Shown here: positions 3 to 19,272 of the stretch, piece by piece
Position numbering within the stretch: the first letter of the stretch is position 1
How the letters are laid out: each line of letters opens with the position of its first letter
NCBI GenBank assembly: GCA_017428055.1
Contig: JAFRRN010000003.1
Location: 1 to 52,653 of the forward strand
DNA length: 52,653 nucleotides
Origin: Prevotella sp.
Lineage (GTDB): Bacteria > Bacteroidota > Bacteroidia > Bacteroidales > Bacteroidaceae
Direction: 5' to 3'
The notes under the pieces: model-generated
What the model was told of the DNA's origin: nothing
What the model saw: the letters and a program-made list of their open reading frames with translations, nothing else
Database searches by the model: none
Made by a program: the position numbers and the translations under genes

Positions 3-406
3 GTCTTAATCCTTGTTGTAATGGAAGATACTCAATGAGTAATGGAATTTTCATATTTAAAGAAATAATCGATAGGTCTTAATCCTTGTTGTAATGGAAG
101 ATACTCAATGAGTGTTGCAAGCCGCAGACGGCGCACTTTATCCCGTAGCTAGTCTTAATCCTTGTTGTAATGGAAGATACTCAATGAGGGGAACTTACTC
201 GAGCCTGCCGTCTCCCAATGGATGTCTTAATCCTTGTTGTAATGGAAGATACTCAATGAGATAGCTTTAGTCACCGTAATAGCAAAGGACGAATGTCTTA
301 ATCCTTGTTGTAATGGAAGATACTCAATGAGATGTCTGGGAAGAGAATTATTTAAGTGCTGAAAATGCGGTCTTAATCCTTGTTGTAATGGAAGATACTC
401 AATGAG
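3..406. CRISPR. CRISPR array end: 6 repeats, 5 spacers
   Basis: Six identical 37-bp repeats lie at 3-39, 76-112, 152-188, 224-260, 295-331 and 370-406. Each begins GTCTTAATCC and ends ACTCAATGAG. The spacers (40-75, 113-151, 189-223, 261-294, 332-369) are 34-39 bp, all different, and none matches the rest of the window by eye. The array probably continues past the left edge. No cas gene is present, so subtype is uncertain. Read on the minus strand the repeat ends GGATTAAGAC, which resembles the conserved 3' ends of type I-B/III repeats, so transcription toward lower coordinates is plausible (inference). No AT-rich leader is seen at 407 onward; coding sequence begins there at once. Confidence 0.97.
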
Positions 407-1870
407 CGCATTGAGGAAGGCACCGCTGCCACAGGCGGGGTCAAGGATGGTGAGTTGCAAGAGCCACTCCCGGTATTCCCTTAACCGCTCCAATGACCGC
501 TTCCGCTCCTCCTTTTGCCGCAAGGGGGTGGCTCCTCCGATGGGTGGGAGCGAGATTGCCTCGATGTCTAATTCCCGTTTCTTCTCCGCGCAGAGCCTCC
601 CGATGGTCTGCTCCACGATGTATTTGGTGATGTGTCGCGGCGTGTAGTACACGCCGTCTTGCTTGCGTTTGGAGGATTGAAGATGGAAAATGGAAGATGG
701 AAGATTGTCTGATACACGACGGGTTGGCGCAATGGAATCTTCAATTTTCAGTCTTAAATCTTCAATCTCCGAGAGTGAATGCTCGAAGATGTGGCCGAGG
801 ATGTTCACGTCGACATCGCTCTCGAAGTCGTAGGCGGCGAGTCGGCGGGTGTGTTCCTCCAACACGCCATCGGAGATAATCAACCTGTCAAGCACCTCGT
901 CGGGCTTGAAGAGGCCGCCGTTGTAGGCGAAAATCTCGGAGTCCTTGCCCTTGTGTCCCTTGTCGAGGTAGCCAAAGAACTTCTTGACGCGGTCGTAGAG
1001 AGGCCTGTATTCGTCCCACTCCTTCATCTGTCGCCACCGTTGAATGATGCCGAGCATCGAGTTGGGCGGCAGCAACCCACAGTCTTCCGCGAAGAGGATG
1101 AAGAGGAAACGGTCGAGCAGTTTCTGGGTCTTCTTGAACAGCAGCAACGTCCATTCCCGCCCGTCCATGCCCTGGGTTTCCATAGGGCGCTCATCCGCGT
1201 TTTGCGGAGGCACGGTCGGCAGTGGGTTGTTGCGAAGGATGTCGTTGAAGAGTGCGTCCTTAAACTGCGAGTAGTCACGGTATAGTGCCTGCGTGACTTG
1301 GTTTTCTGAGGAGAGGGAGTCGCCTTTCATCATCGCCGGGATGCCCCTTTCCACCTGTTCCCATGCCAAGCAGAGGTAGAGTTCGCGGAAGTCGTCGGCG
1401 GTCATGGTGAAGAGGGACCACTCGCGATAGTCCACCGCGTTGTCGATATAGAGTCGCAACTTCTCGAAATTGGAGGTGACGACATAGCGGCAATGGCGGT
1501 GCTGGCTCTTGTAGCCAAATGCCTGTTGCTCGATTTTCGCGAGGTCGGCGGTCTTGTGGTCTTTCAGTTCGATCACGCCGATGACATTTCCGTCGACGAT
1601 GATGGCACCGTCAGCCTTCTTGGTGTTGGCCTCATTCTTCCGTTCGGTGATGAGGTTGTAGTTGGGCGATGGATTGAGCGTATAGCCCAGCACATTGACA
1701 AACAGCTCGCGAAGAAATCCCTCCTGGAACTGCTCTTCCTTGCTTTCGCGAATGTTGGCTTGTATGTCGGGGTTATGGAAATAGGATTGGAACGTCCTCC
1801 AAGCCTCGTCGGTCTGCCCTGCCGATAGGGTTGCCGCATGTTTTTTGATGATGCTCTTCTGAAACAACAT
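407..1870 (-). pseudogene. Type IIG restriction-methylation protein, 3' truncated at the CRISPR array
   Basis: This encodes the N-terminal part of a combined restriction endonuclease/N6-adenine methyltransferase. Residues about 85-105 carry a PD-(D/E)xK-type site (KKADGAII then GVIELK). The middle is helical, and an N6-MTase domain begins with GVYYTPRHITKYIVE and reaches SAM motif I (DPACGSGAF) before the frame enters the CRISPR repeat at 406. The catalytic NPPY motif and target-recognition domain are absent, so this copy cannot methylate. The frame happens to stay open through the repeats to about 227, but that tail is array sequence. Residues encoded by 675-767 are an in-frame palindromic insertion. 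The gene starts at ATG 1870. The truncation may be a real rearrangement or a contig chimera. Confidence 0.85.
675..767. repeat. GGAAGAT-type palindromic element, copy 1, in frame within the type IIG gene
   Basis: The arms 675-706 and 736-767 are inverted repeats, 25 of 32 positions pairing, around a 29-nt loop. Both arms are made of GATTGAAGAT/GGAAGAT-like units. The element is 93 bp (31 codons), keeps the host frame open, and falls in the linker just before the methyltransferase domain. Related copies are at 17838-17917 and 18825-18903. Confidence 0.8.
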
Positions 1871-9926: not shown

Positions 9927-12900
9927 TCACTTATTTCTTTTTCGGTTGTTTGTTCCACCGCCATACGGCATGAAGGAGGAGATAGCGGGGCATGGTATTA
10001 GACCATGTCTCGGTGCGCCCCTGGCATTGATGGAGCGCGAGAAATGGGAGCGTTGCATCAAGAGGTCAAAGCCGTCGAGCATCACGAGAAGGCTCCCTTT
10101 GAGGAAGGGTCGCGAGAGGCGGGCATTCCACACCCACTCGTTGGTGTTGAGCGTGGGGTCGTTGTACCCCCGGCGCATGTAGAGGCTTATGTCTGTGTCT
10201 ATCTCTATCTGCCACGGCAGCTTGAGTTGGGCGGCGAGGGTGGTCTTGTAGTCGGCAACGTTGAAGTCTTGGAAGTCGTCCCGCCTACTGCCGACGTGCT
10301 GCCACGTATTGTCCGAGGCGATGCGGAAGTGGTGGTTGGCGAGTTTGTATGTCAGCTCCACCGTCTGCCCATACATGGATGTACCCACCTTGCTGCGTTC
10401 AAGGATGCCATTCGTTCCCATGAGGTCTACGCTCTTGGCGTATGAGAGTTGGGGAGCGAAGGTGATTGCCGACTTTCGCGCCTTGTCGATGGGTGTCGAG
10501 ACATAGTAGTTCACGTTCCCTTGCCAGTTGCCGTTGACATTGTAGGGGCGATAGGTGCGCACTCCCGTCGCCCCATCGTATAGGCAACTCATGGCGAGGG
10601 CGTTTTGCGTGTACTTGTAATCGATGCCGAAGCCTTGGCTCGCTTGCTTCTCCCGTAGGGTCTTGCGCACCACGAGCCGCAGGCTATAATGGTAAGCGTC
10701 GCGCAGGTCACCGTTTCCCTCGTGGATGTTGAGCGGGTCGGTGGCATCTTGGATGTTGACGAAGTGGGTGAGCGAGGGCGGCGTGGCGGACAGGCGCGGT
10801 GCGAGGAACACGATGTATTTCCTATCGTCGCTGGTCCATTGGGCATACCCCCAATCAGGATGGAAGAGCAGGGTGCGGCGCGTGATGAGCGTGTCAAGAG
10901 TACCGCGCCGATATTGCAGCCGCTGGCGGAGATAAGTGAAAGGAGCGCGGAGGCTGATGCTGACGGTGCCTTTGCCGACCTTGGGAAACCACCAGAGGAT
11001 GGCGGAGAAGTCATGGGCATATTCCGTGAGGCGGCTGTCGTAACTGTTGGCGAGGTCCATCGTACGTTGGTAGTCGTAGACGGAGGGCAGCTGTCTCATC
11101 GTGTCTGTCTCATTCTCGAATGCCAAGAGCGTGTTTTCCCGCCTCTGCTCCTGTCTACGGAAGCCGTAGGTCGTTTCCAAAGACATGCCTTTCTTGATGG
11201 TATAGTTGTAGGTGAGCGTCCCTTTGTACTCGTGGGAGCGGTCGGGATGGATTTTGAAAGATTGGTCGCGGTAGGTGTTGGGATATGGGGAGGCTACGCC
11301 ATAGCGGACGAGCTGGCGGTTAAGACGGTCATCATCCTTGTCGGTATGGGTAGTGGCGACGGCAATCTCGATGTTATCGGTGTGGTTTTCCGACAATTTG
11401 ATGGTAGCATTGGCATGGAGCGAGCCGTTGAGTTCATGCCCTCGCCCAGCCCCCTGTTGGCTGTTTCGGTAGAGCAAGGAGTCGTTGGCGGTGAATGCTG
11501 TCGCTTCATATTGCGAGCGGTTGTCCCAATGATGATATTTGAGCGACGGGTTGATGGCAAGCCTCACCATCTTGCGGTTGAGATGGAGGGTGTGGTTGGT
11601 GCCAATCTTGACGGCATGGTCGCGAGTGGAAGCCTCCATCCGCTCGTAGGTGTTGCCCGCAGGGAGGAAGTTGGTGCGGTCGGTATTTGTCAGCAGGTTG
11701 TTGTCGGTATGCTCCCATTGGGCATTCCCCTCCACCTTCCATAGCTTGTCGCGGTCGTCAATGGCGTAGTCGAAACCCGCCTTTTGCCGTGTCTGCCGCC
11801 CGCTGTTGGTATTGGGCGACCATTGGTTGTTCTCGCCGGGCGTGCCGTTGTCATTAAGATTGTTGGCGTTGGCATACGCTCCGAGGCGAGAGTGGTCGGT
11901 GAAGCGCAGGGCGAAGAGCCGCGCGAGGAAGCGGTCATCGATGCCCCCTCCTGCCTCAATGTTGGCGAGGATGCCGATGGCATACTCTTTTTTCAGTTGC
12001 ACGTCCATGACATAGTATTTATCGTTTGGCATATCGCTGCCAAGCCATTCCGCCTTTTCGGTGAGCTTGTCGTACACCTTGATTTCCTTCACCGTGTACG
12101 AGGGCAGGTTGTCGAGCATCACGCGGCTGTCGCCACGGAAGAACTCCTTTCCATTGAGCAACAGGCTCTGCACGAACTTCCCGTTGTGGAAGATCTGGCC
12201 GTTGTCCTTCAACTCCACGCCCGGCAACTGTCTGATGAGGGCATCGAGCATACTCCCCTCTGCCAGTTGGAAGGCATCGGCATTATAGACAAGGGTATCG
12301 CCGCGGTAATAGAACATCACTTTCGATGCCGTGACCGTCACCTCATGGAGCATATTGCGCTCCTGCTTGAGGTAGAGGGGCGGCAACTGGCGCAAGAACT
12401 CCCGTTTGTGGAGGTTGTTGATGGCAAGGGGGAAGTGGGTGGTCTCATATCCCACATGGCTCACCCGTAGGATGTATTGGCGTTGCTCCTTGGGAATGAC
12501 GAAATGGAAATAGGCATTGTAGCCCTTCTTGTCACCACTCATCCAGAACGACCGTGCCTCCTGCGTGGCGATGACGGCACTATCGCGGGTGAGCAGTTGC
12601 ACCGTTGCCCCAACGAGTTCATTGTGTGTACGGTTGTCATAGACATATCCGAAGATGCCCATATCGACCGTTTTCTTCCTCTTTTGATACAGGATGTAGA
12701 TGTCGTTTCCTTTCGTCTTGACCTTCACGGGCTGGTTCTTGCAAAGTTCCTCGATGGCTCTGCGCACGGGGAGGTGCTTGATGTTGGCCGACACCTTGAT
12801 GTGTTCCAGCTCGTTGTTGACAAACGTGAGGCGGTATTCCGTCTGCCGTGCCTTGATGAGGGCGAGGGCATCTGCCAAAGACATGTCCTTGAACTGGTGG

Positions 12901-12977
12901 GTAATGAATGTCTGGGCCTGGGCCGACGCCATGGTGGCGAGGCAAACGAATAGCAAAATTGCGATGCGACGTGTCAT
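9927..12977 (-). CDS. Module A outer-membrane receptor (STN + CarboxypepD-reg + barrel), frameshifted near 3' end
   Basis: The 1016-aa protein has a signal peptide (1-21), an STN domain (about 25-95, the domain that signals to FecR-like anti-sigmas), a carboxypeptidase-regulatory-like domain (about 107-205), a plug-like domain (about 215-330 with YRGDTLVYNADAF, ALIRQLPGVE) and a long beta-barrel. It is a paralog of the protein at 14247-17450. It starts within the anti-sigma A stop (4-bp overlap). The last 27 residues do not resemble the paralog, but another frame from about 10025 to a stop at 9931 does (RTETWSNTMPRYLLLHAVW), indicating a 1-base deletion in a G4 run at about 10015-10025. The ligand is unknown. 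Confidence 0.85.
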   Translation of the reverse strand: MTRRIAILLFVCLATMASAQAQTFITHQFKDMSLADALALIKARQTEYRLTFVNNELEHIKVSANIKHLPVRRAIEELCKNQPVKVKTKGNDIYILYQKRKKTVDMGIFGYVYDNRTHNELVGATVQLLTRDSAVIATQEARSFWMSGDKKGYNAYFHFVIPKEQRQYILRVSHVGYETTHFPLAINNLHKREFLRQLPPLYLKQERNMLHEVTVTASKVMFYYRGDTLVYNADAFQLAEGSMLDALIRQLPGVELKDNGQIFHNGKFVQSLLLNGKEFFRGDSRVMLDNLPSYTVKEIKVYDKLTEKAEWLGSDMPNDKYYVMDVQLKKEYAIGILANIEAGGGIDDRFLARLFALRFTDHSRLGAYANANNLNDNGTPGENNQWSPNTNSGRQTRQKAGFDYAIDDRDKLWKVEGNAQWEHTDNNLLTNTDRTNFLPAGNTYERMEASTRDHAVKIGTNHTLHLNRKMVRLAINPSLKYHHWDNRSQYEATAFTANDSLLYRNSQQGAGRGHELNGSLHANATIKLSENHTDNIEIAVATTHTDKDDDRLNRQLVRYGVASPYPNTYRDQSFKIHPDRSHEYKGTLTYNYTIKKGMSLETTYGFRRQEQRRENTLLAFENETDTMRQLPSVYDYQRTMDLANSYDSRLTEYAHDFSAILWWFPKVGKGTVSISLRAPFTYLRQRLQYRRGTLDTLITRRTLLFHPDWGYAQWTSDDRKYIVFLAPRLSATPPSLTHFVNIQDATDPLNIHEGNGDLRDAYHYSLRLVVRKTLREKQASQGFGIDYKYTQNALAMSCLYDGATGVRTYRPYNVNGNWQGNVNYYVSTPIDKARKSAITFAPQLSYAKSVDLMGTNGILERSKVGTSMYGQTVELTYKLANHHFRIASDNTWQHVGSRRDDFQDFNVADYKTTLAAQLKLPWQIEIDTDISLYMRRGYNDPTLNTNEWVWNARLSRPFLKGSLLVMLDGFDLLMQRSHFSRSINARGAPRHGLIPCPAISSFMPYGGGTNNRKRNK

Positions 12978-13504
12978 TCCTCGCCCTCCCTTTCCGTGAC
13001 ATGTTCGACGAGAAGGGTGTCTCCGCAGACGGTGAGACGCAAGCCGTCGAGTTCATTGAGGCTTTCAATGAATGCGCCGAGGGGCAGCGAGCGGTTCCAC
13101 ATCGTGGTGATGCGCCATTCACGAGGCGCGTCTTGCCGGAATGTTACTGCCTTGCCATAGTATGTCGCCACGGTGGCGAGGAGTTGTTCGAGGGGTTGGT
13201 TGTCGAAACTCACGATGCTATCGGCGGGCATGGAGGCGGGAGTTGTCGTGTCTGAAACATTGGCGTGGGCGACGGGAGGGGTCTGCTGCCGGGGCATGAA
13301 GAGGCGCAGGGAGGCATAGACGATGCCTGCGAGGAGGAGGGTGCCGATGACCATGGCGGCGATGCGTCGCCAAGGGAGGGTGCGCTTCGGGGCGATGGCT
13401 CTCACCACCCGCTCCTCAAAGTCGGCGGGGAGCGGCAGCTCTTCGCCGAGGCGTTGGCGGAGGGCTTCGCGGATGTCAGTGTCTTTCTGTGTGTGGGTAT
13501 TCAT
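12974..13504 (-). CDS. Short FecR-like anti-sigma factor A (DUF4974)
   Basis: A 176-aa single-pass protein with a cytoplasmic N-terminus (about 1-45), a TM helix (RIAAMVIGTLLLAGIVYASL, about 47-66), a Thr/Pro/Ser linker and a periplasmic C-terminal domain like DUF4974 (SFDNQPLEQLLATVATYYGKAV ... FIESLNELDGLRLTV). The usual central FecR domain is missing, so it is about half the usual FecR length (around 330 aa). By analogy it holds sigma A and is relieved by the receptor STN domain. It lies 13 bp after sigma A and overlaps the receptor. Confidence 0.82.
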   Translation of the reverse strand: MNTHTQKDTDIREALRQRLGEELPLPADFEERVVRAIAPKRTLPWRRIAAMVIGTLLLAGIVYASLRLFMPRQQTPPVAHANVSDTTTPASMPADSIVSFDNQPLEQLLATVATYYGKAVTFRQDAPREWRITTMWNRSLPLGAFIESLNELDGLRLTVCGDTLLVEHVTEREGEE

Positions 13505-14048: not shown

Positions 14049-14173
14049 GTTGTTGAGAGTTTTAACCTTTTACTCTTATATACACGCCAAGTGTGTGGAT
14101 ATGTCGCAAAAATACGACTTTTTTTTCAGTGAACATTCTTTTCATTGAACATAGACCATTGCGTGGTGATTGC

Positions 14174-14253
14174 TAATGGTCAATGGGGTTAATGGGGTCA
14201 ATGGGGTCAATGGGGTTAATGGGTTAATGGGGTTAATGGGTTATGGTCAATGG
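14174..14253. repeat. Tandem 8-9-bp repeat between receptor B and sigma A
   Basis: About nine units of TTAATGGGG/TCAATGGGG, some one base shorter, run up to and over the receptor B stop codon (14247-14249). Units vary T/C at one position. It lies just upstream of module A and may be slippage-prone. Confidence 0.85.
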
Positions 14254-17200
14254 CGAATCTTCTTTGGGATATGGCTGAAGTGCCATTGCACATGCAGCAT
14301 GAGATAGGAGGGTACGGCGTTGCGCCATGTCTCTACCTGCCCCAGTGCGTTGATGTTGCTGTAGATGTTCGTGAGTTGGCCGAGGATGTCGAATCCCTCA
14401 AGCTTGACAACCAGTTTGTTTTTCCACAGCGACTTGGCAATGGAGGCATTCCATACCAGGTCGTCGGTGTTAAGGGATTTGTCGGAATAGCCGCGCTTGG
14501 TGTAGAGCATGATGTCGGTCGCCACTTGTACCCCCCTGCCGTAGCTCCCTTGCAAGATGGGAAACTCGTATTGTCCCGACAAGCCATATTGTACGGCGGT
14601 GATGTGGAGGGAGGTGAGCAGCCCCGCCGATGGCGTGCGGTACTTGCTCCATGCCGTGCTGTAATTGACTTGTGGGCTGATGGTCAGCTTTTCCCATTTA
14701 TAGCGTAGGAGGGCGCGTTGCGTGATGTTCCAGTTGTTGGTAACCGCCCGTCCGTCTTGCTCTGCGTTCCCGATGGTGATGCTTCGTGCGACGTTCACGT
14801 AGTGAGTATATCCCAAGCCCGTGCGTGTCTCTATCCATAGCCGTTTCTGCTTGTCGAGCATCCTGCCAAAGCTGAATTGCCCCCAGGTGTCCCAGTTGCC
14901 CTTCACGTTCTCAAACCGATGGTAGGTGACGCCCGTTTGCGGGTCGTATGTCTGCCCGTTCCTCAATGCGTCTTGGTAAATGTTTAACCCGCCGTCGAAC
15001 CGCAGGTATTGGTTGATCTTGTTTCTGCCGACCTTGTAGTTCACTACGAGGCGGTGGTTGAACTGCCGTTTCAACTGTCCGTTGCCTATTTGGACATTCA
15101 ACGGGTCTTGGTCGATGTGAATGTTTACTATCCGCGACATATCGGGTACGATGTATGCCGTCTCGTAATTGACGTAAAGAAAGTTTTGCTGGTTGTTGAA
15201 GGTTGTCTCAAACCTCGCCGATGGCGTGGGTGTCACCTTGCGCCAAGTGAAGGCGGTGTCGGTAGCAAATGGCGATGGAGCCACCGTAGACGGTGTACGG
15301 TAATGGGTGTGTATGCGGTCGATTTGCACGGGGAGGGAGAGGCTGAACCATACGCGGCGCCCATTCTTCATGTTATCGTGTTGGTAATAGACCATTGCCC
15401 CCGGTGCCGCCCGCCGCCGATTGGCAGTGATGTCGTAACTGTTGTTGGCATCGAGAGCCATCAGCAGCGAGTCATAAACGGTGGGCACACCATTCAATGC
15501 GAGCGTGTCGGTAAGGAGGTCAAGACGGAAGTGATCGTTGGTGGCATGTTGGTGGGTGTGGCGGTAACCCACGTATGCGCGGTAGTTCCAATGCGAATGG
15601 CTATGGACGGTGTATTGGATGCCCGCCTCCCATTCTGTCCGTCGGTTTTTCTTCCACGAGTGGGTATGGCGGTTGTCCGTGGTGAGTCCTTCCGTCACCA
15701 TACGGTTGGCATCCTCCCGCCTGTTGTCGTCATAAGAGAGGTTACCCCAAAGGTCGATGTCATCGCCCCAAAGGAACTTATAGCTGATATTGGGCTTGTA
15801 TTCCACCCGCCATTCCGTCTCGCTGTTGCGGGTATCGTCGTTGCGCATATTGACGAGCATGTCCATGAGTTGCTTGCTATAATGGAATGCCGAGTCGAGG
15901 ACTTGCGCGGTGAAGCCGATGCGCGACGGGTCGCCCGTGAAGCGGGCAAGGCGTTCATAGCCGTTGCCTGTGTTGTGTCCGTAGGAAGCCTCCACCCTAT
16001 TGCGAAACCAGAAAGGCTTTCGCAGGGTGAACGTGTTGTTGGCTCCGAACTGGAAGTCTTTATACCTCATGTCGTTGATGGTACGAGAGAACTGGTTGCC
16101 CGTCTGTAGGAAATGCTCCGTGGAGGTATGCTCCTCCTTGTGCTGGCGTATCCATGCCACCTCCACGTTGCCGTCTTCCGTCCATCGCTTGTCCTTATCG
16201 TTGATGTTGAGGCTGATGCCCGCCTTCTTCATATTGATGACTCCCTCCCTCATGCTCTTGGCGGGATCCCATTCGCCATTGTTGCCAGGGTCGCGCATCT
16301 CGTTGGTGTTGTTGGCGTTGACGTAGGCAGAGAGGCGCGAGTGGTCGGTGTATCGCAAGCCAAAGGCTCTCCCCATGTAACACCTCTCGGTGCCTGCCGC
16401 ACCTTGTAGGTTAGCAAGGTACCCGATGCTGTACTCCCGTTTCAGCACCACGTCCATCACATAGTCCTTGGGTGCGTCTGCCACTCCGAGCCATTCGCTC
16501 TTGTCGGTTTGCTTCTCGTACACCTCAATGTGCTTCACGGTGTAATAGGGTAAGTTTTCGAGCATCACCTTGTTCTTCCCCTTGAAGAAGTCCTCGCCAT
16601 TGAGCGTGAGGAAGTCCACCTTGCGCCCATGTACGTAGATTTCGCCGTTGGCGTTCATCTCCACGCCGGGCATCTGCTTGATGAGGGCATCGAGCATGGA
16701 GCCTTCGGGCACGTTGAAGGCATCGGCATTGTACACCAGTGTGTCGCCCCGATATACCATTTGCACTTTCGTTGCCTTCACCACCACCTCGCCGAGGTTG
16801 CCGCCGTCTAATTGCAAGACCTTCCTTTGCATGAAGTGGTGGGGGAGGTCGAAGAAGTCGTTTCGCGCCACATACTTGAGGGCGTATTCGATGGTGGCAG
16901 GTTCATAGTCGGGATGCTCGGCGATGACGGTGTATGTGCGATGCGTCACGGGCACCTCAAAGCGGTATACGGCATCGTCGCGGTCGTTGTTGGGCCGCCA
17001 TGTGCGCATGGTGTCGATGACGACGCTGTCTTCATTGAGCAGGGTAATCTTTGCGCCCAAGATGCCGTGCTTGGTAAACGAGTCGCGCACATGCCCCCAA
17101 AGGGCGATGGTGCGGTCTTTCTCGGGGCGGTACTTCACGAAGATGTCCTTGCCCTTGGCCTTTACTTTCACGGGTTGCCCCTTGCAGACGCGCTCCACGG

Positions 17201-17450
17201 CTTCGGGGATGGTGAGGTCTTTGGCGCGAAGCCTCACTTGGAGATGGTCCAGGTCATTGTGTACGAATGTGATGTTATACTCCGTCGTGTGTTCGCGCAG
17301 GGCGGCGAGCGAGAGCGAGAGGGTCGTGTTGAGGTCGAGGTTGACGAGCCGCGTAGTGTCCCTGCCCTCTTGTTGTACGATGGGTTCTTGCGCGTTGATG
17401 TTCAATGTAAAAAAGTAAAAAGTCAAGGAAATCAAAAAGGTGGTCTTCAT
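14247..17450 (-). CDS. Module B outer-membrane receptor (STN + CarboxypepD-reg + barrel)
   Basis: The 1067-aa protein has a signal peptide (1-20), an STN domain (about 35-110), a regulatory-like beta domain (about 115-215), a plug-like domain (YRGDTLVYNADAFNVPEGSM, DALIKQMPGVE, LENLPYYTVKHIEVYEKQTD) and a large barrel ending PSYLMLHVQWHF, an aromatic C-terminal strand suited to outer-membrane insertion, followed by a short basic tail. It is co-linear with receptor A. No SusD partner or degradative gene is adjacent, so these look like signalling or uptake receptors rather than a classical SusC/D pair. It starts 6 bp after the anti-sigma B stop. Confidence 0.88.
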   Translation of the reverse strand: MKTTFLISLTFYFFTLNINAQEPIVQQEGRDTTRLVNLDLNTTLSLSLAALREHTTEYNITFVHNDLDHLQVRLRAKDLTIPEAVERVCKGQPVKVKAKGKDIFVKYRPEKDRTIALWGHVRDSFTKHGILGAKITLLNEDSVVIDTMRTWRPNNDRDDAVYRFEVPVTHRTYTVIAEHPDYEPATIEYALKYVARNDFFDLPHHFMQRKVLQLDGGNLGEVVVKATKVQMVYRGDTLVYNADAFNVPEGSMLDALIKQMPGVEMNANGEIYVHGRKVDFLTLNGEDFFKGKNKVMLENLPYYTVKHIEVYEKQTDKSEWLGVADAPKDYVMDVVLKREYSIGYLANLQGAAGTERCYMGRAFGLRYTDHSRLSAYVNANNTNEMRDPGNNGEWDPAKSMREGVINMKKAGISLNINDKDKRWTEDGNVEVAWIRQHKEEHTSTEHFLQTGNQFSRTINDMRYKDFQFGANNTFTLRKPFWFRNRVEASYGHNTGNGYERLARFTGDPSRIGFTAQVLDSAFHYSKQLMDMLVNMRNDDTRNSETEWRVEYKPNISYKFLWGDDIDLWGNLSYDDNRREDANRMVTEGLTTDNRHTHSWKKNRRTEWEAGIQYTVHSHSHWNYRAYVGYRHTHQHATNDHFRLDLLTDTLALNGVPTVYDSLLMALDANNSYDITANRRRAAPGAMVYYQHDNMKNGRRVWFSLSLPVQIDRIHTHYRTPSTVAPSPFATDTAFTWRKVTPTPSARFETTFNNQQNFLYVNYETAYIVPDMSRIVNIHIDQDPLNVQIGNGQLKRQFNHRLVVNYKVGRNKINQYLRFDGGLNIYQDALRNGQTYDPQTGVTYHRFENVKGNWDTWGQFSFGRMLDKQKRLWIETRTGLGYTHYVNVARSITIGNAEQDGRAVTNNWNITQRALLRYKWEKLTISPQVNYSTAWSKYRTPSAGLLTSLHITAVQYGLSGQYEFPILQGSYGRGVQVATDIMLYTKRGYSDKSLNTDDLVWNASIAKSLWKNKLVVKLEGFDILGQLTNIYSNINALGQVETWRNAVPSYLMLHVQWHFSHIPKKIRH

Positions 17451-17456
17451 ACTTTC

Positions 17457-18056
17457 TTAAGGTTTAGTTACGATAATGGTATCTTGGCGGATGGTGAGAC
17501 GCAAGCCATCCAGCTCGTTCATCCGCTCGATGAATGTGGGCAAAGGCTCATTCGGTTGCCACGTCGTGGAGACACGCAGGTGGCGAGGGTCGTCGCTTTG
17601 GAATGCCAAAGCATAGTTGTAGCTCTTGGAAACGATGTGCATGAGGCTGTCAAAGCGTATGTTCTCAAAGCGTATAGCCGAGTCTTTCTCCGTGGAGGGG
17701 CGCATCGTGTCGATGGCGACGGGGGCATCGTGGGGCGATTGTGCGACATGCGACTGCTGCGCCTTGTGGAAATACAATGCGGCGATAGCCAATCCGCCCA
17801 TAAGGACGAATGCGAGAAGGGCGGCGGCCATCTTCCTAAATGAAGATGGAAGATGGAAGATGGATGCGGGGGTGGATGGCTCCTCATTTTCCATCTTCCA
17901 TCTTCCATCTTCCATCTCAGCGAATGCCATCCGCAAGGCGACCATCGTGTCGTAGTGCTTGCGCATATCCTCGTCGTCAAGCATCGCCTTGACTTGTTGC
18001 TCGGTATAGAGTTCGGGATGCTCAATCATGTCGAGCAGGGTTTCTAATCTGTCCAT
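17457..18056 (-). CDS. Short FecR-like anti-sigma factor B with in-frame palindromic insertion
   Basis: The 199-aa protein has a cytoplasmic N-terminal helix region (LLDMIEHPELYTEQQVKAML, AALRMAF) typical of Bacteroidetes anti-sigmas, a TM helix (MAAALLAFVLMGGLAIAALYF, about 77-97) and a DUF4974-like C-terminal domain (IRFENIRFDSLMHIVSKSYNYAL ... FIERMNELDGLRLTI). Between the cytoplasmic part and the TM helix lies EMEDGRWKMENEEPSTPAS, encoded by a GGAAGAT palindromic element (17838-17917) that leaves the frame intact. It sits 13 bp after sigma B. Confidence 0.83.
   Translation of the reverse strand: MDRLETLLDMIEHPELYTEQQVKAMLDDEDMRKHYDTMVALRMAFAEMEDGRWKMENEEPSTPASIFHLPSSFRKMAAALLAFVLMGGLAIAALYFHKAQQSHVAQSPHDAPVAIDTMRPSTEKDSAIRFENIRFDSLMHIVSKSYNYALAFQSDDPRHLRVSTTWQPNEPLPTFIERMNELDGLRLTIRQDTIIVTKP
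17838..17917. repeat. GGAAGAT-type palindromic element, copy 2, in frame within anti-sigma B
   Basis: The left arm (17841-17864) has repeated GAAGATG units. The right arm (17887-17917) has repeated CCATCTT units. They pair over more than 20 bp around a 22-nt GC-rich loop. The element encodes part of the cytoplasm-TM linker. Confidence 0.8.
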
Positions 18057-18069
18057 GATATATATGGGG

Positions 18070-18567
18070 TTAAGGGTTGAAACGTCGTTTGAGTTTACTG
18101 ATGGCTTGCGCCAGGTGCTTGTAGACGGCAGCCTCGCTGATGTTGAGCGCCAAGGCTATCTCACGATAAGTCTTCCTTTCGTTGAACCGTAACTTCACCA
18201 CATTGCGTGTCTGTGGCGTGAGTTGCGTCTCGACGAAACGGAGCATTTCCTCCAAGGGGTAGCTTGTCGGTATGTTGTCGTCGTAGGAGGTCTCCTCGCC
18301 GATGGGCAACAGCCGATGCACACGCTCCGCCAATCGTTTCTTTCTCAGTAGGTTAAGGCAACGGTTGCGAACGGCATTAAGCAGATAGGACGTGGGATGG
18401 GTCATCGTTGGAGGTTGCTCGGCGAGTTGCGCGAACACATCGCTTACCACGTCATGGCTTTCCTCGTCATCTGCCAACATCTGTTTCGCCAGGAAGAGCA
18501 TCCTGTCATGATGCTTTTCGTATAACCGTTTGATTTCTTCTTGTTGCATTCCGCCAACCTTTTTCAT
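18070..18567 (-). CDS. ECF sigma factor B (Bacteroidales sigma-70 family)
   Basis: The 165-aa protein has region 2 (RMLFLAKQMLADDEESHDVVSDVFAQLAEQ, SYLLNAVRNRCLNLLRKKR) and region 4 (LTPQTRNVVKLRFNERKTYREIALALNISEAAVYKHLAQAISKLKRRF). Its region 4 is the form common in Bacteroides sigma factors paired with FecR. I place the start at ATG 18567 (MKKVGG) or 18549 (MQQEE); the frame is open to 18693 but the extra residues do not look like sigma sequence. It is first in the sigma/anti-sigma/receptor B unit. Confidence 0.9.
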   Translation of the reverse strand: MKKVGGMQQEEIKRLYEKHHDRMLFLAKQMLADDEESHDVVSDVFAQLAEQPPTMTHPTSYLLNAVRNRCLNLLRKKRLAERVHRLLPIGEETSYDDNIPTSYPLEEMLRFVETQLTPQTRNVVKLRFNERKTYREIALALNISEAAVYKHLAQAISKLKRRFNP

Positions 18568-18824
18568 GGCCTGTTGTGACAACCATTTATTAATAAGACA
18601 TACGAGAGGGCATTTCCCCAACCCCCTATCTTCGATTTTTTCCACAAAAGTAATACTTTTTGATAAAAAATCCCATACCACCCTCACGGGCAATATGGGA
18701 CAGCTGATGCATCATACCTAATTCTAAAATGAAGCTTATGCAACTATCGGGGCCTTTACCCCTCTTATCATATTATACACATATTCTTCAATAATATCCC
18801 TATTTACTGTTTGATATTTAATTT

Positions 18825-18903
18825 GATTGAAGATTGAGAATTGAAAATGAGAAGCCATCTACCCCTACGCCTATTTTCTATCTTCCATCTTCAATCTTCC
18901 ATC
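18825..18903. repeat. GGAAGAT-type palindromic element, copy 3, at the blaI 3' end
   Basis: The arms GATTGAAGATTGAGAATTGA... (18825-18853) and the complementary 18874-18903 flank a 20-nt loop. The right arm encodes the last residues (DGRLKMEDRK) of the BlaI-family protein, and its stop codon (18871-18873) lies at the arm edge. Confidence 0.78.
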
Positions 18904-19272
18904 GTTTTCGATGATTTGTACAATCTCCCTGATTTGCTCCTCGCTCAGGTTTTCTCTCTTGGTAAAGAATGATACGAGGGACGTAAACGAGTCGTCAAAA
19001 AACGTCTTTTTCACATAACGCAAGAAAGACTCTGTATATTCGTCCTTGCTCACAAGCGCAGAGAACAGGTTGCTTTTGCCCATCTTCTCGGTTGCCACAA
19101 AACCCTTATCCTTTAAGATTTTGAGAAAGGTGAGGAGCGTCGTCATCGCTGGCTTCGGCTTTGGCATCCGCTTCATGATGTCAGAAGAGAAGCCTTTCTC
19201 ATCGGGAAGGCTCCACAAGACGTTCATCACTTGTGTCTCGGCCTTGGTCAATTGTTGTTGCTTCGTTGCCAT
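18871..19272 (-). CDS. BlaI/MecI/CopY-family repressor, orphan
   Basis: The 133-aa protein has an N-terminal winged helix (LTKAETQVMNVLWSLPDEKGFSSDIMKRM, KPAMTTLLTFLKILKDKGFVATEKMGKSNLFSALVSKDEY) and a C-terminal dimerisation segment (FTSLVSFFTKRENLSEEQIREIVQII). Members are normally followed by a BlaR1/MecR1 M56 metallopeptidase that inactivates them. None is here: the palindromic element and then sigma B follow. The tail after QIIEN is element-derived. It probably regulates itself through the inverted repeat at 19304-19319. Confidence 0.88.
   Translation of the reverse strand: MATKQQQLTKAETQVMNVLWSLPDEKGFSSDIMKRMPKPKPAMTTLLTFLKILKDKGFVATEKMGKSNLFSALVSKDEYTESFLRYVKKTFFDDSFTSLVSFFTKRENLSEEQIREIVQIIENDGRLKMEDRK

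Follow-up and report, generated by a model that had tools for sequence, protein, structure and literature searches.

Tandem heptamers dispersed in genomes are known from cyanobacteria as STRR sequences, and palindromes located inside conserved protein genes are known as the Rickettsia palindromic elements. Mrazek 2007, as cited in PMC4679880 and PMC4692102, is the source for heptamers being over-represented and, in many bacteria, the preferred class of long simple repeat. The consulted part of Rehm et al. 2015 (PMC4692102) describes repeats of GGGAATC and GGGGA(C/T)T in Xanthomonas and Nostoc; the Xanthomonas arrays are located near gene ends, with 70 and 75 convergent inverted pairs, and intragenic repeats amount to 11% and 7%, partial overlap included. 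Direct repeats of the heptamer TAACTGA are, in the sections used of MacGregor 2015 (PMC4679880), patchily distributed across unrelated bacteria including some Bacteroidetes, and the same article relays Mrazek's suggestion that polymerase contact favours slippage by seven bases. Excerpts of Di Nocera et al. 2013 (PMC3733652) place REPs inside uvrA and other repair genes, and triplex motifs are described in the corresponding part of Holder et al. 2015 (PMC4666352).

The window analysed here is a stretch of 52,653 nucleotides from Prevotella sp. (assembly GCA_017428055.1, contig JAFRRN010000003.1), in which facing arrays of the unit GAAGATK occur inside an anti-sigma factor gene. A literature search for this unit, and for heptamers or palindromes in connection with Bacteroidetes, Prevotella or MutY, with most subscription papers outside its scope, gave no article that by its title and abstract seemed to describe the present case.

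A paired heptamer array in an anti-sigma factor gene

The inverted repeat at 17838-17917 (E2), as read from the sequence, consists of (GAAGATG)x3, a centre of about 25 nt and (TTCCATC)x4. The purine arm on the forward strand, (GAAGATG)x3 plus GA (GAAGATGGAAGATGGAAGATGG), occupies about 17842-17864, the centre about 17865-17888, and the pyrimidine arm, the complement of the purine arm, 17889-17916 on the reverse strand. A further partial unit, CCATCTTCC, read directly at 17828-17836 on the reverse strand, codes for the juxtamembrane residues RKMA. With up to three mismatches allowed, the pattern (GATKGAA)3 gave 13 matches in the window, compared with a mean of 0.01 and a maximum of 1 after shuffling, and these matches clustered at 675-767 (E1), 17838-17917 (E2) and 18825-18903 (E3). 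All three copies touch open reading frames (ORFs).

E2 lies in frame within the ORF 17457-18056 on the reverse strand, which encodes an anti-sigma factor of 199 amino acids identified by a Pfam match to FecR_C and a predicted transmembrane (TM) helix. The element is situated in the linker, reads EMEDGRWKMENEEPSTPASIFHLPSSFRK immediately ahead of the TM helix, and encodes the peptide DGRWKMENEEPSTPASIFHLPSSF directly N-terminal to it. The preliminary description had taken this stretch for a second coding copy of a GGAAGAT element, placed in frame where the cytoplasmic domain is joined to the TM helix. The inverted repeat and the excess of unit matches establish the hairpin element as real, the common unit pattern assigns it to one family with the copy at 675-767, and the ORF reading and TM prediction confirm the placement. 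When folded, the linker carrying E2 had a z of -5.2. A scan against Rfam returned 17 matches at E up to 1, mostly to miRNA hairpin models, and none at the gathering score. A single-sequence AlphaFold2 model of the protein, poor overall (mean pLDDT 55.9), faintly suggests a loop between two helices.

The partner ECF sigma factor gene, recognised by domain matches, is located at 18070-18693 on the reverse strand and is syntenic in another genome of the genus, G207, with 62% identity over residues 50-207. Two proteins of about 1000 amino acids (9927-12977 and 14247-17450) each adjoin a sigma/anti-sigma pair and have syntenic relatives in G207 at 56-60%; neither matched NCBIfam, and the one at 14247-17450 had no Pfam match. 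A nine-base tandem array (GGGGTTAAT-like) at 14170-14248 is intergenic between a sigma factor gene and one of these large ORFs.

The paralogous FecR_C anti-sigma factor at 12974-13504 on the reverse strand had been proposed as an internal comparison without the insert. It does lack E2; as a control it is nevertheless poor, since it aligns (36% identity) only to residues 71-196 of the E2-bearing protein, and its cytoplasmic part, where there is no alignment, is shorter, the TM window starting at residue 47 rather than 77. Among 299 genomes of the genus searched with the anti-sigma protein, 122 matched at 1e-10, and the best match, at 43% identity (42% in a second comparison), was in G207, where the ortholog sits in a syntenic cluster of sigma factor, anti-sigma factor and large protein. 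Its TM window begins at residue 78 as against 77 here, so that the length ahead of the helix is equal, and its spacer is unrelated and without hairpin excess (z +0.2 versus -5.2). The fold z of the other 30 sequences compared ranged from -3.0 to +2.8. The hairpin is thus peculiar to the E2 gene among the sequences compared, yet the protein is no longer for it.

This equally long, unrelated and hairpin-free spacer in the nearest ortholog is the very outcome that the preliminary description had named as refuting, and it speaks against a simple insertion. An insertion with target duplication was set aside, the best homolog being, at 43% on the protein level, too distant for the ends to be placed. 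The identity of E2 as a dispersed repeat is unaffected by the equal length of the ortholog, because its basis is the presence of copies throughout the genome and of a centre, itself not a repeat, that recurs at 18825-18903.

Another anti-sigma homolog (L086) also has arrays of the E2 unit family in its linker, where the arms match poorly and the fold z is -0.8, and a third (L090) has a different heptamer there. Self-similarity at lag 7 was found in 3 of 32 anti-sigma linkers, those of E2, L086 and L090, and at the other lags from 4 to 12 in none. By eye, the linker of one further homolog (L082) contains another type of palindrome, CCCCTCTCC-GAT-GGAGAGGGG.

Copies of the repeat in the genome and in other bacteria

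E1 (675-767) is in frame in an MmeI-like ORF (227-1870, reverse strand), between the MmeI_hel and MTase matches. E3 (18825-18903) extends across the stop codon that ends a BlaI-like ORF (18871-19272, reverse strand); one arm codes for the C-terminal tail, the Penicillinase_R match ending at residue 122 of 133, and the other arm lies past the stop codon. At the start of the contig (3-414), six copies of a 37-base repeat spaced by 71-76 bases form a CRISPR-like array, and the MmeI-like ORF continues into this array at its 3' end (LIEYLPLQQG repeated). Either this ORF is truncated at the array or the contig end is misjoined.

A portion of the E2 centre (17866-17891) recurs as the reverse complement in E3 (18843-18868). 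This segment of about 26 bases, present in opposite orientation in the two elements, had no other occurrence in the genome at up to 3 mismatches, and it is therefore very likely that a whole element has been copied at least once. A common centre was also found in the elements C20 and C25.

In the whole assembly of 4.2 Mb, the unit pattern with up to 2 mismatches gave 62 matches, compared with 0 for the reversed control, in 28 clusters on 21 contigs. Thirteen clusters are two-armed and 15 one-armed, and a search for two-armed elements added one more (C21). By our own reading against mechanically called ORFs, 17 clusters include an ORF end or are at most 30 nt away from one, 7 are contained entirely in an ORF, and the remaining 4 belong to neither group. 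In the 13 two-armed clusters and C21 taken together (n = 14), the unit variants of the two arms co-vary (Spearman 0.69, permutation p 0.004). Periodicity was scanned in the window and nineteen 19-kb stretches chosen regardless of the repeat (413,666 bases). Period 7 gave 14 array matches versus 0 in a block shuffle, six of them inside the window, period 9 gave 15 versus 1 and period 6 gave 11 versus 2. The eight period-7 arrays outside the window consist of several different units.

The exact two-armed pattern, GAAGAKKGAAGAKK-N(4-34)-MMTCTTCMMTCTTC, was detected in 101 stretches of a collection of 84,980 species, corresponding to 103 elements in 64 assemblies as counted by accession prefix. 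By record title these include Bacteroidota, Chloroflexota, Gemmatimonadota, Acidobacteriota, Campylobacterota, Desulfobacterota, Oscillospiraceae and a cyanobacterium. Four records with several elements (L121, L139, L147 and L190) are titled Bordetella parapertussis MAG, which may be a mislabel. Phage carriage was set aside, the exact two-armed pattern occurring in 0 viral contigs; a one-strand GAAGATK array was present in 10 stretches.

Within the genus, pairs of the GAAGATK unit are purine-first. This arrangement was found in 12 of 398 genomes (18 elements, 5 of them in the genome studied here; control 0), and the pyrimidine-first arrangement, searched with a slightly looser pattern, in 0 of 378. 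The reversed control of the latter search, which is a purine-first pair of another unit, gave 9 elements in 7 genomes. A scan of 612 kb that presupposed no unit yielded six inverted period-7 pairs, five of them purine-first and all five from MutY loci. The sixth (L233), the only pair from the stretches of the same genome chosen regardless of the repeat, is pyrimidine-first with a mixed unit, and a purine-first rule for every unit is consequently not upheld. Nor are plain tandem heptamers specific to the GAAGATK unit, because the reversed tandem control exceeded the pattern across the phylum (27 versus 13 of 296 genomes), and the tandem pattern was rejected as a marker. In one genome (G456, loci L223-L225) with 175 matches to the tandem pattern, all three loci inspected hold (GAAGAGT)n arrays with a single arm, two of which by eye seem to begin behind a stop codon and to be followed by a GC-rich hairpin and a T-run.

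The first 80 of the 101 stretches contained 81 elements. Inside ORFs of at least 90 codons there were 21, although some of these ORFs look spurious (for instance in L104). Among the remaining 60, by our count 52 include an ORF end or come as close as 30 nt to one; 33 of the 60 have tandem ORFs on their two sides, 16 convergent ones and 6 divergent ones, and 5 are at contig edges. Seven of the 21 ORFs with an element inside were scanned with Pfam and six had matches, namely to a SpoU methylase, a CoA-ligase-like protein, UvrA, TRCF (Mfd), MutY and an acyltransferase. The product of L174 resembled FolC in motifs recognised by eye, had no Pfam match and was left out of the counts.

In all 103 elements the two arms concurred in unit variant at 0.716, compared with 0.295 when shuffled across assemblies. 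For the 17 assemblies with several elements (n = 56), the concordance of 0.737 hardly differed from the 0.719 obtained by shuffling within assemblies, and 273 of 2000 permutations reached the observed value. Since concordance within assemblies is no higher than expected, arm-to-arm copying is unsupported outside the genome studied here, and homogenisation as a general rule was abandoned. The unit is thus characteristic of the genome, and this suggests either that it spreads inside genomes or that each genome has a bias of its own.

As seven is not a multiple of three, a tandem array of about three GATTGAA or GTGAAGA units holds a TGA in every frame, whereas GATGGAA arrays, read directly, are open in all frames. 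Both arms of E2 have GATGGAA as their full unit, and the sense-strand units of E1 depart from GATTGAA where a TGA would fall in frame. The choice of units in E1 and E2 fits translation through both copies.

Recurrence of heptamers in MutY linkers

The MutY gene of another genome of the genus (G304, L137) contains an in-frame element inside its NUDIX_4 match. MutY homologs matched at 1e-60 in 130 of 199 genomes; 52 loci from the top of the ranking were used, and 50 linkers were readable after two loci (L267 and L285) with no recognisable MutY linker had been left out. At a self-similarity of at least 12/14, lag 7 was detected in 14 of the 50 linkers and lags 3-6 and 8-13 in 0 of 50. At 11/14, lag 7 was found in 17 and any other lag in at most 3. 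The fraction of linkers with arrays may be inflated, because the query of the ranking itself bears an array and the four best matches align with it through the linker; with these and G304 excluded, lag-7 arrays remained in 10 of 45.

The units vary by species and include GAAGATK, GAGAGGA, TGAGAGG, AGGTGAG, GAGTCAG, CAACTGT and others, some forming full hairpins and others only a single arm, which may be on one strand or the other. Linkers free of arrays can have as few as 16 residues, and the array-bearing spacer is longer than that of many array-free species. Seeding of the arrays from native codons found weak support, such a heptamer being present at the start in 2 of 33 array-free linkers. 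Rebuilt from different heptamers, and with no other period at threshold in 50 linkers, the MutY linker is a natural experiment on the process that makes units of seven bases and facing pairs. In one MutY linker (L295) yet another palindrome type, CCCTCCTCCAAAGGAGGGG, was noticed by eye, and together with the palindrome in the anti-sigma linker of L082 it suggests that these spacers may collect several kinds of repeats.

Origin of E2 and relation to known repeats

The origin of E2 may be depicted as follows: E2 is probably a simple-repeat palindrome of heptamers that arose by slippage in steps of 7 bp and fold-back copying and was tolerated in the linker. Arrays of a purine-rich seven-base word, GAAGATK in this genome, would have grown via 7-bp tandem duplication, and the purine strand would then have served as template for the facing pyrimidine array through fold-back (strand-switch) copying; both steps are what we infer of the mechanism. 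Whole units including the centre may occasionally have been copied to other places in the genome, as with E2 and E3. The linker that connects the sigma-binding domain with the TM helix would tolerate unrelated sequence, and copies in genes would persist at such tolerant linkers only. This tolerance, together with GATGGAA being open in all frames, may explain why E2 persists inside the gene. In all likelihood E2 does not contribute to anti-sigma signalling and would be neutral there. This origin is favoured by the clusters of the unit throughout the genome, the unit variant that each assembly keeps, the period of seven in MutY and anti-sigma linkers with units varying by species, the purine-first pairs of GAAGATK, the centre common to E2 and E3, the co-variation of arms in this genome and the similar behaviour of the Xanthomonas arrays.

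The main rival is a mobile palindromic element of the REP, MITE or Rickettsia-palindromic-element sort, moved by a transposase such as RAYT and inserted into the gene. A genome-wide family with a genome-specific unit, copies placed at ORF ends, in-frame copies within conserved proteins, and the common centres of E2/E3 and of C20/C25 would all suit such an element, and transposition would account just as well for the unit shared by 28 clusters and for the centre that E2 and E3 have in common. Several observations nevertheless make it unlikely. By reading, no core is common to all copies and the centres vary, 15 of the 28 clusters are one-armed, the unit differs among species at one and the same MutY site, and viral contigs are free of the exact two-armed pattern. 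The sole Y1_Tnp match in the genome is moreover in a 2.2-kb locus reaching to the contig edge and without any two-unit heptamer match, and RAYT mobilisation was discarded on this ground. In that locus (L300:1-2214), the RAYT-like Y1 transposase gene is flanked on both sides by short GTAG-bearing palindromes, noticed by eye and unrelated to the heptamer.

The strong fold in a sigma/anti-sigma operon could also be thought to reflect selection for a hairpin, of RNA or DNA, by which the balance between sigma and anti-sigma factor is tuned. This is very improbable, as the same linker shows z values of -3.0 to +2.8 in 31 related sequences, the hairpin is missing from the syntenic ortholog, the same kind of element occurs in unrelated genes and no Rfam family was reached at the gathering score; it was rejected for its lack of conservation among related linkers. 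An ordinary evolved linker resembling the repeat by chance would agree with the equal length of the nearest ortholog's linker, yet it is scarcely credible in view of 13 unit matches where 0.01 were expected and 62 matches in the genome where the control had 0.

Having preferred slippage and fold-back for E2, we also put forward, tentatively and as a rather doubtful extension, that a general copying process in bacteria, stepping by 7 bp, builds purine-first hairpins, and that those reaching tolerant sites become new protein spacers. The MutY and anti-sigma linkers would then have been rebuilt from differing heptamers, and the polarity, being that of strongly purine-rich units, could be a trace left when fold-back copying is primed on the purine strand. 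The rebuilt MutY linker also shows a way in which growing repeats may give rise to protein segments in frame, including in the DNA-repair proteins MutY, UvrA and Mfd.

The repeats resemble the cyanobacterial STRR, by their description, in being dispersed tandem heptamers. With the REPs, as excerpted from PMC3733652, they have in common palindromes in conserved protein genes, including uvrA and uvrB, and many copies behind genes; those REPs differ in following a family consensus and bearing a tag, GTAG or CGTC, whereas here only the seven-base unit is common. Like the TAACTGA repeats in the part of PMC4679880 used here, they are restricted by stop codons in their position in genes; unlike the GAAGATK pairs, TAACTGA arrays are described there as direct, mostly ahead of start codons, with one indirect repeat reported. 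The closest likeness is to the Xanthomonas repeats, as far as the consulted part of PMC4692102 describes them: a purine-rich tandem unit of seven bases, genome-wide, often at gene ends, for the most part shortly behind a gene, and rarely intragenic, in convergent pairs that we read as the same geometry as the GAAGATK pairs. That part of the description does not mention spacers that recur in frame at a single site of a protein. The unit GAAGATK is not GGGANTN and has no G-tracts for a G-quadruplex, and it is thus not the Xanthomonas repeat itself. Paired heptamer arrays were in this way already published for Xanthomonas (PMC4692102, same part), and E2 is of that general kind with a different unit.
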